A stretch of DNA of 64,000 bases. Source: an uncultured Ruminococcus sp. (GTDB lineage Bacteria > Bacillota > Clostridia > Oscillospirales > Ruminococcaceae). Positions 39,333-55,619 of this stretch are shown one piece after another. The position numbers and the translations under genes are program-made. The notes beneath the pieces are model-generated. The model ran no database searches, was not told where the DNA came from, and saw only the letters and a program-made list of their open reading frames with translations. The stretch spans positions 48,781 through 112,780 of the forward strand of contig NZ_CAMKRR010000004.1 in NCBI RefSeq assembly GCF_946415235.1, read 5' to 3'. The number at the start of each line of letters is the position of its first letter. Within the stretch, counting starts at the first letter, position 1.

Positions 39333-41615
39333 ATGAACAACGGATCTGATAATACCAAAAACGGAAAGAAAAATAAAGTAAAAAGAGTATCAAGCAGCTT
39401 TAACCCACTTGCAGCAGCCGTAATAATCGTAGTCGCAAGCGCACTTGTGATAGGCTACTGCATTTTAAACCCCGAGTATGCCAAATCAACTCTTATCATA
39501 TATATTTGCACAATGGTCTGTGCAACTCTGATCCTTGCCATATCGGGCTGGATTTATAAAAACAGAAAGACCTCGCTGGACGTCAGCGATGTAATAAAGA
39601 TAACAGAGAACCTCAACACCGAAATGATAATCTGGTCGGATGATTTCTCTTTCGTTTATATAAACAGGAAGCTCCGCGAGCTTCTCGGCATAAGTGCCGA
39701 CTATTCGGACAAAAAGGAAGGCGTATGGGCTGCCTTCGGCATAAATACCCCAGATTCAACCGCACTGGAAAGGATAGTGGGAAGCAACTCCTACGAATCC
39801 ACTTTCCGCAATCCCAGCGGCTCTCTAATCTCCATAGCATGGAGCACATCAAAGGTAAAGAAATACAAGAAACGCGATGTTTATCTCAGCACAGGCTTCA
39901 ACCTCACAGAGCTCAAGAAAATGAGGCTGAACCTTGCAAATGCCAACGACTTCTTCCACTCTTCAATGGAGCTTGCCGAGATAGGCCTTATAATGAGCAC
40001 CGACAGAAGAGTTTTCCGTGCATCTCCCGAGCTTTCACATATGCTGGGACTTAAAAACAGCTCGATAAACGTAAACGAGCTGCGCTCCATAATCCACCCC
40101 AACGACAGGCTCCAGTTTGACGGAGCTATCCGCAGCAAGGACATAACAGCCTCCAAAAATCTCGAAATGAGGCTCAAGAGCGCCGACGGCTCTTACCGCT
40201 GGTACTCCTTCCGCCTTAAGTCCATAATAGGTACGGGAAATACCGCTCCCCTCTTCGGCGGAGCCGTTATCGACGTTACCCAGAAGCACGAAAAGGACAT
40301 CCTTATCGAGCGCCTCGCCTACATGGACGATGTTACGGAGATCGCAAACCGCAACAAGCTGGTTGTTACAGGTCAGGAAATATACGACTCATGTAAGATA
40401 CTGGACTATTCGTTCTGGATAATAGTCCTCGATATCGACCGCTTCCACATCATCAACGACACCTGCGGCTATACCAACGGCAACTTCGTGCTCAAGAACT
40501 TTGCCCATATCCTGTATAAATATGTAACTCCCGGCGGTCTCGCAGCAAGAATAAGCGGCGATAACTTCGCACTTCTCCTCAGAGACTACGGCGACGAGGA
40601 AATGCCAACAAGAACAGTAAAGGCTATACAGGAGGACTTCACAAGGCTTGCCGTTGACGATTTTGCTTCAATAAGCCTTACCTGCTCGGCAGGCTACTCA
40701 AAAATGCCCGAGGACGGCGGTTCGTTCCTTGAAGTCATGGAGCACGCCGAATTCGCACTTAAATCCAACGCAGGCATTCAGGGCAGCATTTGCGGCTATG
40801 AGCCGAGTATGCACGATTCCATCATAGGAAACACCGAGCTTGAAAAGGCTCTTGCACTTGCTATAGACAATAACGAATTACAGCTCTACTATCAGCCGAA
40901 GATCGACCTTTCATCAGGAAAGATCATGGGCGTTGAAGCTCTTATCCGCTGGATAAAGCCCGACGGAACGGTAATTACTCCCGATTCATTCGTGCCTATT
41001 GCCGAGAGCTCGCACCTCATCGGCAGAATAAGCGAATTCGTACTCAACGAGGGCTGCCGTCAGAACAAGCTGTGGCAGAAAATGGGCTATTCGCCTATAG
41101 TTATGTCCATAAACTTCGCCTCCTCGGATTTCTATCAGACAGACCTTAAAGAAAAGGTATTTGAAGCTCTTGCGCGTTCGGCTCTCGATCCCCAGTGGCT
41201 CGAGGTAGAGCTCACCGAAAGCCTCGCCCTCAGCGATATCGACTTCGCAGTGGATCAGATGAACAAGATACGCGATCTCGGTGTAAAGCTTGCAATGGAC
41301 GACTTTGGAAAGGGCTATTCGTCACTGAGCTACCTGCAGGTCCTTCCTATCACACTTCTTAAACTGGACCGCTCCTTCATAACCGATATCGAGCACGACA
41401 ATATCGCCTACGAGATAGTTTCGGCAGTAATACGCATCGCCAAATCAAAGAAGATAGAAACTATTGCAGAGGGTATCGAGAACAATGTTCAGGAATCCAT
41501 ACTGCGCATGGCAGGATGTGATTACGGTCAGGGCTACCTCTACGGTCAGCCTATGCCACCCGAGAAGATACTCGATTTCTTCGAGCAGAACGAAAAGCGC
41601 GATATGAAGCGATAA
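39333..41615 (+). CDS. PAS-GGDEF(degenerate)-EAL membrane protein, predicted c-di-GMP phosphodiesterase
   Basis: Two TM; GGDEF position reads SGDNF; EAL residues present: GVEALIRW, VELTES, MDDFGKGYSS, LKLDRSFI, IAEGIEN, QGYLYGQP. Confidence 0.88.
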   Translation: MNNGSDNTKNGKKNKVKRVSSSFNPLAAAVIIVVASALVIGYCILNPEYAKSTLIIYICTMVCATLILAISGWIYKNRKTSLDVSDVIKITENLNTEMIIWSDDFSFVYINRKLRELLGISADYSDKKEGVWAAFGINTPDSTALERIVGSNSYESTFRNPSGSLISIAWSTSKVKKYKKRDVYLSTGFNLTELKKMRLNLANANDFFHSSMELAEIGLIMSTDRRVFRASPELSHMLGLKNSSINVNELRSIIHPNDRLQFDGAIRSKDITASKNLEMRLKSADGSYRWYSFRLKSIIGTGNTAPLFGGAVIDVTQKHEKDILIERLAYMDDVTEIANRNKLVVTGQEIYDSCKILDYSFWIIVLDIDRFHIINDTCGYTNGNFVLKNFAHILYKYVTPGGLAARISGDNFALLLRDYGDEEMPTRTVKAIQEDFTRLAVDDFASISLTCSAGYSKMPEDGGSFLEVMEHAEFALKSNAGIQGSICGYEPSMHDSIIGNTELEKALALAIDNNELQLYYQPKIDLSSGKIMGVEALIRWIKPDGTVITPDSFVPIAESSHLIGRISEFVLNEGCRQNKLWQKMGYSPIVMSINFASSDFYQTDLKEKVFEALARSALDPQWLEVELTESLALSDIDFAVDQMNKIRDLGVKLAMDDFGKGYSSLSYLQVLPITLLKLDRSFITDIEHDNIAYEIVSAVIRIAKSKKIETIAEGIENNVQESILRMAGCDYGQGYLYGQPMPPEKILDFFEQNEKRDMKR

Positions 41616-51495: not shown

Positions 51496-51516
51496 TACCT
51501 ACATAAGTATTTCCCG

Positions 51517-51546
51517 AAGCCGCCGTTTTTGGCGGCTTTTTTATTG
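51517..51546 (+). terminator. Intrinsic terminator after rpoD
   Basis: aagccgccgtttttggcggcttttttatt. Confidence 0.8.
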
Positions 51547-51572
51547 ACATTCACGCCCTTATGTAGTATAAT
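51544..51572 (+). promoter_or_regulatory. Consensus sigma-A promoter of the EAL/solenoid gene
   Basis: TTGACA-TTCACGCCCTTATGTAG(17)-TATAAT, overlapping the rpoD terminator tail. Confidence 0.85.
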
Positions 51573-51682: not shown

Positions 51683-54421
51683 ATGGGTATATTTGATTTC
51701 AGCAAAACTCCTCCCGCGCTAAGTCATGACTGGCAAGTATTTCAGCAGTTTGTCGGCAATATAGGAGCGTTTACCTATATCGCAAAGGAAAAAACCGCTT
51801 ATCTTGATGCTGTCGCCTGCCACATTCTCGGCTGCCCGAGCGAAAAGATCAACGAATTTGAGTTTTTCGACCTTCTTGAAAAGATATCGAAAAACCCTGT
51901 AGAGGGACAGAAGCATATCTACAAATTCACGGACGGGAATACCTCACGCTTCGTGAAAATGAACGTATACGAGAGCAGCGACGTGTGGCTCGGATTTATA
52001 CAGGACTTTACACGCCAGATCTCGGATATCAGCGACCGTCAGGCGTATGTGGAGTATGATCCTGTCACCCGTCTGCCGTCCTTCCCTTCATTTTCACAGA
52101 AGATAAAAAAGATACTTCCCGACGTTCAGCAAGCCTGCCTTGCCACTATTTTCATCAACGGCATAGACAAGCTCGGCTCGTATCTTACTGTGGACAATAC
52201 CAACAGCTGTATCACATCCGTTGCGGAAGCTCTGAAAAGTTTTGAGAGCGACACTATCATAATCGGCTCAAAGTCAAATTATGAGATATGCGTATTCTTC
52301 TGCGACTGCGACAAGATGAGCATATACAATATCCTCAACAGCATGGGCGAGGCTGTGCAGAACTGCACTCTTACCGATGACTTCGGAGAGATAATAGATA
52401 TTTCCGACAAGAGCCGCATAAGCCTGTCCATAGGCTGCGCGTCCTATCCCGAGGAAGCCTCGGACTTCAATATGCTGGTGAACTACTCAGAATTCGCTCT
52501 CTTTGAAGCAAGAACGGACAAGCGCTCGGTGATAAACTGGTACTCCGAGGAGAACTACATACGCGAAAAGGACTCATACCGCAATGCTCAGACCTTCTCC
52601 CGCATAGTTCAGGAAAATCTCCTCACCTATCATCTCCAGCCTATAGTTGAGACACAGACTGGCGAGATAGTCGGTTACGAAGCCCTTATGCGTACTATAG
52701 GGGACATAAAAATGGCTCCTACACAGATACTGAAAATAGGCGCTGCTCAGAACGATCTTTACTCTATCGAGAAGCTCACTTTCTTCAACACCCTGAAGCT
52801 TCTCAGCGATAACCAGCAGATATTCGACAAGCGCAAGCTCTTTATCAACTGCCTGCCAAGCCATCTTCTCACCGATGAGGACTTCAACGAGCTCTACCTC
52901 ACATACGGAGAGCTCCTCGAAAAGACCGTAATCGAGATCGTGGAGGAATCGGCTGCTTCGGATCAGAATATAGAAACACTGAAAAAGCGCTGCGGATTTG
53001 CTCATGCAACTCTCGCTATCGACGACTACGGCGCAGGCTACTCAAATACATCGAACCTGCTGCACTATTCCCCCGATTTCATAAAGATAGACCGATCGCT
53101 CATCAGCGATATCCACAACGACCTCAAAAAGCAGCAGCTCGTTACGTCTATCATCGAGTTCTGCCACGAAAATCAGCTGCAATCCCTTGCTGAGGGAGTT
53201 GAGACCGTGCAGGAGCTCAAGACCGTAATAAGACTGGGAGTGGACCTCGTTCAGGGCTATTATACCTCAAAGCCCAAGCCACTTTTCCTGAACAGTATAT
53301 CATCCGATATCAAGGACGAGATAATCAAGACAAATCTTGAGACACGCCCCGACGGTGTAAAGAAGATATACGCAGCTCAGAACGATACAGAGCTTGATCT
53401 TCTCAAGCTCGCACTTGAAAAATACACCGATATCCATGTTTATCAGAGTAAACTCACTATCGTGGGCGATCCTGATAAACAGGTCAAAATGAATATTGCC
53501 ATCATGGATAACCACAGCTGTGAGCTGACGCTTAAAAATGTAAATATGATAAGCGGAAACAGCAAGCCTACTATCACAGTCGGCGAATATGCCCGTCTTG
53601 TGCTTAACGTTGTCAAGAACAACAAGCTCAGCTATTCGGGTATCTATGTGCCTATGGGCTCGCAGTTCGAGCTGGGCGGCAAGGGCAACCTCACTATAGA
53701 CTGCTACGCATCTGAGGGCATCGGTATCGGAAACGACTACGATCACGGCTACGGAGATATCACTATCGACTTCGGCGGCACTCTCGAGATCATATCCAAC
53801 AGCGTTGAAGCCCTTTGTATCGGCGGCGGTCAGAACGACGACGGCTCGGATATAAACCTCCGCTCGGGCAAGATAAAGATATATATGTACTCACATAACG
53901 GTCTTGCTATCGGCAGCTTCAACGGCGACGCAAATATCGACATCGGTGAGAACTGCTCGCTTGATATCACCATATCGGGTATCAAGGTAACAGGTATCGG
54001 AAGCTGCAAGGGCATTTCCACTATAAGCTCAGACGCTGATATAGTTATGTCCTGTACGGGCGCCCAGGCTGTGGGTATCGGCGTTCTTGAGGACGGCGAG
54101 GGCAGCATCTACATAAAACAGGGCAAGATAAGCATGAAGATGCGCTGCGCCAAGCACTCCTGCATAGGCGCTATGAAGGGCAATATCAATACCAAGATAA
54201 AGAATGCCTTCATCAGTATAGACTCCGAGGGCGACGAGGTAACAGGTATCGGCGACGCTCTTGGCACAGGAAACGTCACTATCATCGACTCGGAAGTATC
54301 CATGACCGTTAATGCGGGTAATCCCAAGGATATAGGTACAGCTACAGGCGATGTGCAGATACAGAACTCAAACGTCACTTCGCTTGTCAACAATAAGCGT
54401 ACTACCTACGCTAATAATTAA
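51683..54421 (+). CDS. PAS-like / degenerate GGDEF / EAL protein with C-terminal beta-solenoid-like GIG repeats
   Basis: EAL residues present (GYEALMRT, FINCLPSHLL, IEIVEE, AIDDYGAGYSN, FIKIDRSL, LAEGVET, QGYYTSKP). C-terminal ~330 aa has recurrent GIGIG, LCIGG, LAIGS, TGIGS, VGIGV, SCIGA, TGIGD. Confidence 0.85.
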   Translation: MGIFDFSKTPPALSHDWQVFQQFVGNIGAFTYIAKEKTAYLDAVACHILGCPSEKINEFEFFDLLEKISKNPVEGQKHIYKFTDGNTSRFVKMNVYESSDVWLGFIQDFTRQISDISDRQAYVEYDPVTRLPSFPSFSQKIKKILPDVQQACLATIFINGIDKLGSYLTVDNTNSCITSVAEALKSFESDTIIIGSKSNYEICVFFCDCDKMSIYNILNSMGEAVQNCTLTDDFGEIIDISDKSRISLSIGCASYPEEASDFNMLVNYSEFALFEARTDKRSVINWYSEENYIREKDSYRNAQTFSRIVQENLLTYHLQPIVETQTGEIVGYEALMRTIGDIKMAPTQILKIGAAQNDLYSIEKLTFFNTLKLLSDNQQIFDKRKLFINCLPSHLLTDEDFNELYLTYGELLEKTVIEIVEESAASDQNIETLKKRCGFAHATLAIDDYGAGYSNTSNLLHYSPDFIKIDRSLISDIHNDLKKQQLVTSIIEFCHENQLQSLAEGVETVQELKTVIRLGVDLVQGYYTSKPKPLFLNSISSDIKDEIIKTNLETRPDGVKKIYAAQNDTELDLLKLALEKYTDIHVYQSKLTIVGDPDKQVKMNIAIMDNHSCELTLKNVNMISGNSKPTITVGEYARLVLNVVKNNKLSYSGIYVPMGSQFELGGKGNLTIDCYASEGIGIGNDYDHGYGDITIDFGGTLEIISNSVEALCIGGGQNDDGSDINLRSGKIKIYMYSHNGLAIGSFNGDANIDIGENCSLDITISGIKVTGIGSCKGISTISSDADIVMSCTGAQAVGIGVLEDGEGSIYIKQGKISMKMRCAKHSCIGAMKGNINTKIKNAFISIDSEGDEVTGIGDALGTGNVTIIDSEVSMTVNAGNPKDIGTATGDVQIQNSNVTSLVNNKRTTYANN

Positions 54422-54524: not shown

Positions 54525-55619
54525 ATGAAGCTTGGCATGGTTGGTCTGCCCAATGTGGGCAAAAGCACTCTTTTCAACGCACTTACGAACGCAGGTGCCG
54601 AATCCGCAAACTACCCCTTCTGCACTATCGAGAAAAACGTGGGTATCGTCTCAGTTCCCGATGAAAGACTCGATAAGCTTGCAGAAATGTACGAACCCGA
54701 TAAGTTCACTCCCGCAACTCTCGAATTCGTGGACATCGCAGGTCTCGTAAAGGGAGCCTCCAAGGGCGAGGGCCTCGGAAACAAGTTCCTTGCGGATATC
54801 CGCGAGGTTGACGCTATCGTTCACGTTGTAAGATGCTTTGAGGACCCCAATATCATCCACGTTGACGGAAGCATCAATCCTCTCCGCGACATCGAAACTA
54901 TCAATCTTGAGCTTATATTCTCGGATATAGAAATGGTTGAAAGACGTATCGACCGCGCTAAAAAGGCTGCAAAGGGCGATAAGAAGTACCTTGCTGAGGC
55001 AGAGTTCCTTGAAAGATTAAAGGCTCACCTTGAAAACGGCAAGTCCGCAAGAGGTTTCGACTTCACTGACGAGGAGCGCGAGCTCATAAAGTCAACTCCC
55101 CTGCTCTCTGCAAAGCCTGTTATCTATGCGGCTAACCTCAGCGAGGAGGACTTCACCAATAATATCGACACAAACGAGAACTACAAGGCTGTATGCAAGC
55201 TTGCAGAGGAAGAGCACTCCGCTGTACTTCCTATCTGCGCTCAGATAGAAGCCGAGATATCGGATATGGGCGAGGAGGACAAGGCTATGTTCCTCAGTGA
55301 GCTGGGTCTTGAGGTTTCAGGTCTCAACCGTATCATCAAGGAGGGCTATTCTCTCCTGGGACTTATCTCCTACCTCACCGCAGGCAAGCAGGAGGTACGC
55401 GCGTGGACTATCACTAAGGGCACCAAGGCTCCTCAGGCGGCAGGCAAGATACACACCGACTTCGAGAAGGGCTTTATCCGCGCGGAGGTCATCTCCTACG
55501 ACGACCTTATGGCTTGCGGAAGCATGGCTGCCGCCAAGGAAAAGGGACTTGTCCGCCTTGAGGGTAAGGAATACGTTATGCAGGACGGAGATATAGTTCT
55601 GTTCCGTTTCAATGTGTGA
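54525..55619 (+). CDS. ychF: Redox-regulated GTPase/ATPase YchF
   Basis: MKLGMVGLPNVGKSTLFNALTNAGAESANYPFCTIEKNVG; TGS-like C-terminus. Confidence 0.97.
   Translation: MKLGMVGLPNVGKSTLFNALTNAGAESANYPFCTIEKNVGIVSVPDERLDKLAEMYEPDKFTPATLEFVDIAGLVKGASKGEGLGNKFLADIREVDAIVHVVRCFEDPNIIHVDGSINPLRDIETINLELIFSDIEMVERRIDRAKKAAKGDKKYLAEAEFLERLKAHLENGKSARGFDFTDEERELIKSTPLLSAKPVIYAANLSEEDFTNNIDTNENYKAVCKLAEEEHSAVLPICAQIEAEISDMGEEDKAMFLSELGLEVSGLNRIIKEGYSLLGLISYLTAGKQEVRAWTITKGTKAPQAAGKIHTDFEKGFIRAEVISYDDLMACGSMAAAKEKGLVRLEGKEYVMQDGDIVLFRFNV

Follow-up and report, generated by a model that had tools for sequence, protein, structure and literature searches.

Why should a predicted c-di-GMP phosphodiesterase that apparently stays in the cytosol end in a long repeat domain resembling modules of secreted surface proteins? 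The question is raised by a gene at 51683..54421 (+) of the window, i.e., the whole stretch of 64,000 nucleotides of DNA from an uncultured Ruminococcus sp. that was analysed. The gene is complete and encodes 912 amino acids in one frame with exact coordinates; its orthologues align collinearly from end to end. The genome, 96% complete and assembled into 176 contigs that total 3.4 Mb, contains 16 EAL and 28 GGDEF matches, and no PilZ domain was found in it. About 10 kb upstream of the gene, at approximately 40317-41552 of the window, lies a second c-di-GMP protein, with GGDEF and EAL in a 773-codon open frame.

A fusion of this kind could be an artefact, i.e., an assembly chimera or a frameshift that joined an EAL gene to a gene for a secreted protein, as the original prediction had itself allowed. 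The probability of such an error is negligible. A collinear orthologue was found in 22 of 23 genomes of the same genus (Ruminococcus flavefaciens group), some of the copies being cut by contig ends, and the C-terminal parts share 58-97% identity. A scan of named genomes yielded 80 loci, mostly from Ruminococcus flavefaciens and from Ruminococcus spp. of the rumen or gut, with a few records under other names; 74 of them, from isolates as well as MAGs, are full length with the same 912-aa architecture, and in six the contig ends within the gene. ychF (54525..55619, +; regarded here as a conserved neighbour outside the system) lies 3' of the gene in 18/18 same-genus loci whose contig reaches far enough, and it likewise follows the EAL-solenoid gene at L216 and L225, two loci from other genera. 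Upstream, the same-genus loci usually carry rpoD, dnaG and dgt-like genes. Full-length orthologues and synteny thus rule out a chimera, and the gene is single and intact. It is probably also transcribed separately from the rpoD unit, as suggested by a terminator-like hairpin that closes this unit (51516..51539, +; recognised by pattern matching only). Just behind the hairpin lies a promoter-like site (TTGACA-17-TATAAT; 51544..51572, +) that agrees with the consensus at 12/12 positions. A sigma-70-type promoter scoring at least 11/12 is present in 54 of 64 upstream regions across the genus; in 320 shuffles, the best score never exceeded 10/12.

The N-terminal region (aa 1-116; 51683..52030, +) had been called PAS-like. 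It is conserved in orthologues, and a search for PAS in this region gave no match to Pfam or to PDB profiles and a model of low pLDDT. The following domain (aa 117-290; 52031..52552, +) is a degenerate GGDEF, as had been proposed, with the signature replaced by SNYEI (aa 198-202). It is recognisable by profile only: the Pfam cut-off for GGDEF is not reached by the 912-aa protein, and when the first 296 residues were used as a profile, TpbB, a diguanylate cyclase, was matched over aa 117-281 (E 3.5e-4). Because the GG[DE]EF motif is absent, an active diguanylate cyclase can be rejected. The sole Pfam match in the protein is the EAL phosphodiesterase domain (PF00563; aa 305-531; 52595..53275, +), with an E value of 3.7e-47 and 161 bits against a cut-off of 31.3. 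The expectation that its usual catalytic residues are present is borne out at all ten positions checked, which comprise metal-binding and substrate-binding residues and the catalytic base (E333, N389, E418, E421, D447, D448, K468, E504, E507, and Q524), and the catalytic residues are conserved in 68-69 of 69 orthologues. The EAL part is closed by a helix (aa 541-553; 53303..53341, +), placed from AlphaFold2 models and from solenoid-free relatives, which end at the equivalent helix. Judged from these residues, the EAL domain is likely to be catalytically competent, and the protein would hydrolyse c-di-GMP. With its full EAL domain, catalytic residues and preceding degenerate GGDEF, it is similar to EAL c-di-GMP phosphodiesterases of the composite PAS/degenerate GGDEF-EAL type, but it adds a beta-solenoid of approx. 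355 aa behind the EAL domain. A hydropathy scan for transmembrane segments or a signal peptide found none (the maximum 19-residue hydropathy is 1.16, and 0.66 within the first 60 residues). The absence of any hydrophobic segment agrees with what had been noted from the sequence and speaks against an exported surface protein; the protein is most likely soluble and cytosolic.

The C-terminal domain (aa 556-909; 53348..54409, +) is assigned as a cytosolic beta-solenoid on the basis of AlphaFold2, repeat statistics and selection, and consists of a cap (aa 556-625) and GxG coils (aa 626-905). The degenerate repeats that first drew attention to it are real: aa 541-912 contain 10 copies of the motif [GAC][IVLM]G and aa 1-540 none, whereas shuffled versions of aa 541-912 have on average 2.3 and at most 9 (10,000 shuffles). 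The motif marks seven turns spaced by 25-31 aa, and the self-similarity of the C-terminal part peaks at 56 and 85 aa, i.e., at multiples of approx. 28. Modelled alone, the domain forms one continuous beta-solenoid over aa 556-909 (pLDDT 91.2, pTM 0.89), as had been suspected; the full-length run reproduces it, with a pTM (0.43) too low to place the domains relative to each other. The coil geometry is to be read as a prediction, because repeat proteins may be modelled over-confidently and Foldseek found no solved structure in the PDB at E<0.001, the nearest folds being the weak right-handed beta-helix neighbours polygalacturonases and phage tailspikes. The original prediction was correct in placing the repeats in a C-terminal module; its start, put at approx. 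aa 583, lies nearer to aa 556 (53348), just behind the EAL C-terminal helix; the closest solenoid-free relatives stop at this helix. No Pfam or NCBIfam model covers the solenoid behind EAL. It contains no Trp, 4.6% aromatic residues and 15% Gly, and has a net charge of -11. Of the columns that do not vary among orthologues and paralogues, most hold Gly or Ile/Leu, and no family-wide polar catalytic set was found among them; together with Foldseek hits below significance, this led us to reject an enzymatic (pectinase-like) solenoid. Polar residues conserved specifically among orthologues include D685, H688, Y690, D692, N706, N718 and others. Every domain, including the solenoid, is under purifying selection: the dN/dS values of the least saturated pair are 0.029 for the N-terminus, 0.018 for GGDEF, 0.025 for EAL, 0.015 for the cap and 0.039 for the coils. 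Constraint is strongest on the cap, which adjoins EAL (about 0.01-0.03 in near pairs).

A search for the combination of EAL with this repeat revealed not one case but a family. At least 45 EAL-solenoid proteins, counted as recovered members with a complete EAL region, come from many genera of the same taxonomic family; the catalytic residues are intact in 45/45. Their spread, together with the 22/23 same-genus genomes, excludes a one-off fusion. The solenoid profile matches 59 of 249 genomes and 22 of 107 genera at the family level, at least one of the matches in these genomes being of a secreted type. Outside the taxonomic family, one further carrier was seen among 399 genomes of the phylum; it belongs to another family of the same class and has two EAL-solenoid genes (L212 and L213 in G753), possibly as a result of horizontal transfer. 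The same profile detected two paralogues in the genome studied here: one of 1125 aa, which begins with a LacI-type periplasmic-binding-protein-like domain and whose gene is followed by a LacI-GGDEF gene, and one of 706 aa, with almost nothing ahead of EAL. Across the family the inputs vary, comprising LacI-type (sugar-binding-like), LacI-GGDEF, TM-GGDEF or degenerate GGDEF domains, or none or a short helical N-terminus, and the solenoid stands directly behind EAL in all members, whatever the input domain. The sequence behind EAL measures 362-387 aa in 37 of the 45, 402 in one and 421-438 in seven, which carry a C-terminal extension of approx. 50 aa behind the solenoid (L201, L208-L211, L231, and L233). 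The length of 362-387 aa is kept despite only 21-28% identity between paralogues, which is the behaviour that a fixed architectural part should show. In one locus (L039:457-5788), a LacI-type EAL-solenoid gene is followed after approx. 30 bp by a LacI-type GGDEF gene, an apparent opposing pair with related inputs. Broken-looking paralogues also occur (L044:5926-7959 in G015, and L070), in which solenoid frames lack an in-frame EAL and one has an internal TAG.

With regard to its origin, the solenoid is related, as profile comparisons indicate, to the secreted GIGGG beta-helix module (Pfam Beta_helix_3, PF18889). With the solenoid profile, hmmsearch detects secreted-type proteins of other genomes at E 1.6e-7 to 4.2e-6, and a reversed-sequence control of this search gave no match. 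Two of them (L165 and L234) have signal-peptide-like starts, and L234, which matches PF18889 strongly, also carries Cadherin-like and InlB-type repeats. In hhalign, the solenoid aligns with secreted modules with 97.5% probability over 145 columns that cover the cap and first coils, the target being a 48-segment alignment that includes overlapping copies and is not fully non-redundant. The likeness to secreted beta-helix repeats that had been pointed out is thereby confirmed. It extends to a unit of approx. 29 residues and the cap pattern ...LTLxNVxI...GxNxL...GIxVP...GxGxLTI...GIG. Nonetheless, the present solenoid differs from Beta_helix_3 in being cytosolic and fused to EAL, with degenerate repeats and a Gly content of 15% vs. 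about 31-33% in the secreted form; PF18889 itself has no match in the 912-aa protein at E<=1. It appears from the sequences that the solenoid descended from, or shares ancestry with, the GIGGG/Beta_helix_3 module of Firmicute surface proteins and was retained in the cytosol. The direction from secreted to cytosolic is suggested by the wider distribution of the secreted form. The more specific link to PF14262, whose members (Cthe_2159) reportedly bind cellulose and polygalacturonic acid (PMC6712302), did not hold, because there is no Pfam match and the Cthe_2159 structure 4peu was hit only at an insignificant E of 0.012; membership was therefore rejected. These proteins are also beta-helices with weak profile similarity, and in the same genome they are encoded by separate ORFs.

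In EAL trees, the solenoid-bearing proteins lie in one part, separated with 100/100 support from the remaining EALs of the same genome, and the solenoid label requires 4 changes on the tree vs. 9.4 in shuffles. Solenoid-free relatives nest among them, with partly weak support, so that one gain of the solenoid followed by several losses is the simplest, although not the sole, reading. The architecture groups seen in the EAL trees also emerge from the solenoid tree, and thus both domains appear to be co-inherited. The solenoid was lost from, or never present in, some close relatives: two LacI-GGDEF-EAL proteins (L340 and L341) stop right after the EAL C-terminal helix, where the solenoid would start; large membrane GGDEF-EAL proteins (L336-L339 and L342), whose EAL groups with solenoid EALs, end after EAL; and a membrane dCache-like group has none either. 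L340, L341 and the dCache-like relatives exclude a strictly obligatory solenoid.

What might the solenoid do? We give an even chance to a soluble c-di-GMP phosphodiesterase in which the solenoid, derived from a surface-protein module, serves as a platform for docking or self-assembly. The N-terminus and the inactive GGDEF would act as regulatory input and the EAL domain would clear c-di-GMP, whereas the rigid, nearly fixed-length and non-enzymatic solenoid would determine where, or with what partner, this takes place. Since the solenoid stands behind EAL under any input, it would be part of the EAL output and not of one signal. A docking or assembly role is suggested by this indifference to input, the near-fixed length, the lack of a family-wide polar site and the strong constraint on the cap facing EAL. 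The absence of the solenoid from L340, L341 and the membrane dCache-like group argues against such a role, as the module must be dispensable for that EAL type. A rival idea, which we consider unlikely, is that the solenoid acts purely by self-assembly, stacking or dimerising end to end to build clusters of phosphodiesterase or an active EAL dimer. Bactofilins are cytosolic beta-solenoids that polymerise, and both the nearly fixed length and the strongly conserved cap would suit a similar behaviour. The idea of a cytosolic beta-solenoid scaffold is common to both, but the present solenoid is about three times longer and fused to an enzyme, and a Pfam scan of the 912-aa protein gave no bactofilin match. 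Moreover, the C-terminal extension in 7/45 members would cap the open end, and EALs of the same clade exist without a solenoid.

The main rival, with a minor though real share of the probability, is that the solenoid is an intracellular sensor, which binds a carbohydrate such as a storage polysaccharide or an envelope precursor and thereby switches the phosphodiesterase on or off. Its secreted beta-helix kin may bind glycans, the nearest, albeit insignificant, Foldseek folds include polygalacturonases and phage tailspikes, sister proteins carry LacI-type sugar-binding-like inputs, and the host is a fibre-degrading rumen bacterium. In addition, D685, H688, Y690, D692, N706, N718 and others might together make up a site for a ligand, which would speak for a sensor. 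However, the fold itself is generic and shows no family-wide polar site, and a net charge of -11 provides a poor surface for acidic polymers unless they are bridged by metal. The near-constant length, the lack of Trp and the low content of aromatic residues lead us to favour docking or assembly over the binding of neutral glycans. A bolder proposal, which seems rather improbable, is that an adhesin-type beta-helix was moved into the cytosol and became a receptor of a new class, which recognises polymers or glycans inside the cell and gates c-di-GMP hydrolysis directly; if true, Ruminococcaceae would use an entire family of paralogous enzymes of this type to read the state of an internal polymer. 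Finally, the absence of the solenoid from some close relatives and the fast divergence of its surface residues between paralogues might point to a passive remnant, i.e., an acquired surface-protein module tolerated behind EAL without its own function. This is very hard to reconcile with a low dN/dS (0.039), near the EAL values, and with retention in 22/23 congeneric genomes and across many genera, and we regard it as highly improbable.

The open-access literature that was searched contained no paper on EAL joined to a solenoid or beta-helix and nothing relevant on c-di-GMP in Ruminococcus. The combination thus seems to be previously undescribed, an EAL-bound domain of such a kind being found in neither Pfam, NCBIfam nor that literature. 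Its conservation extends through the fibre-degrading Ruminococcus group and to many relatives, where the domain accompanies a large c-di-GMP network that is, as far as searched, unstudied. Solenoid-free sisters occur naturally and offer a clean comparison for the contribution of the module. Rumen bacteria belonging to Ruminococcus and related genera are predicted to carry intracellular c-di-GMP-degrading enzymes with a rod-like tail resembling secreted surface proteins, which suggests that a surface-protein fold has been recruited into intracellular signalling.
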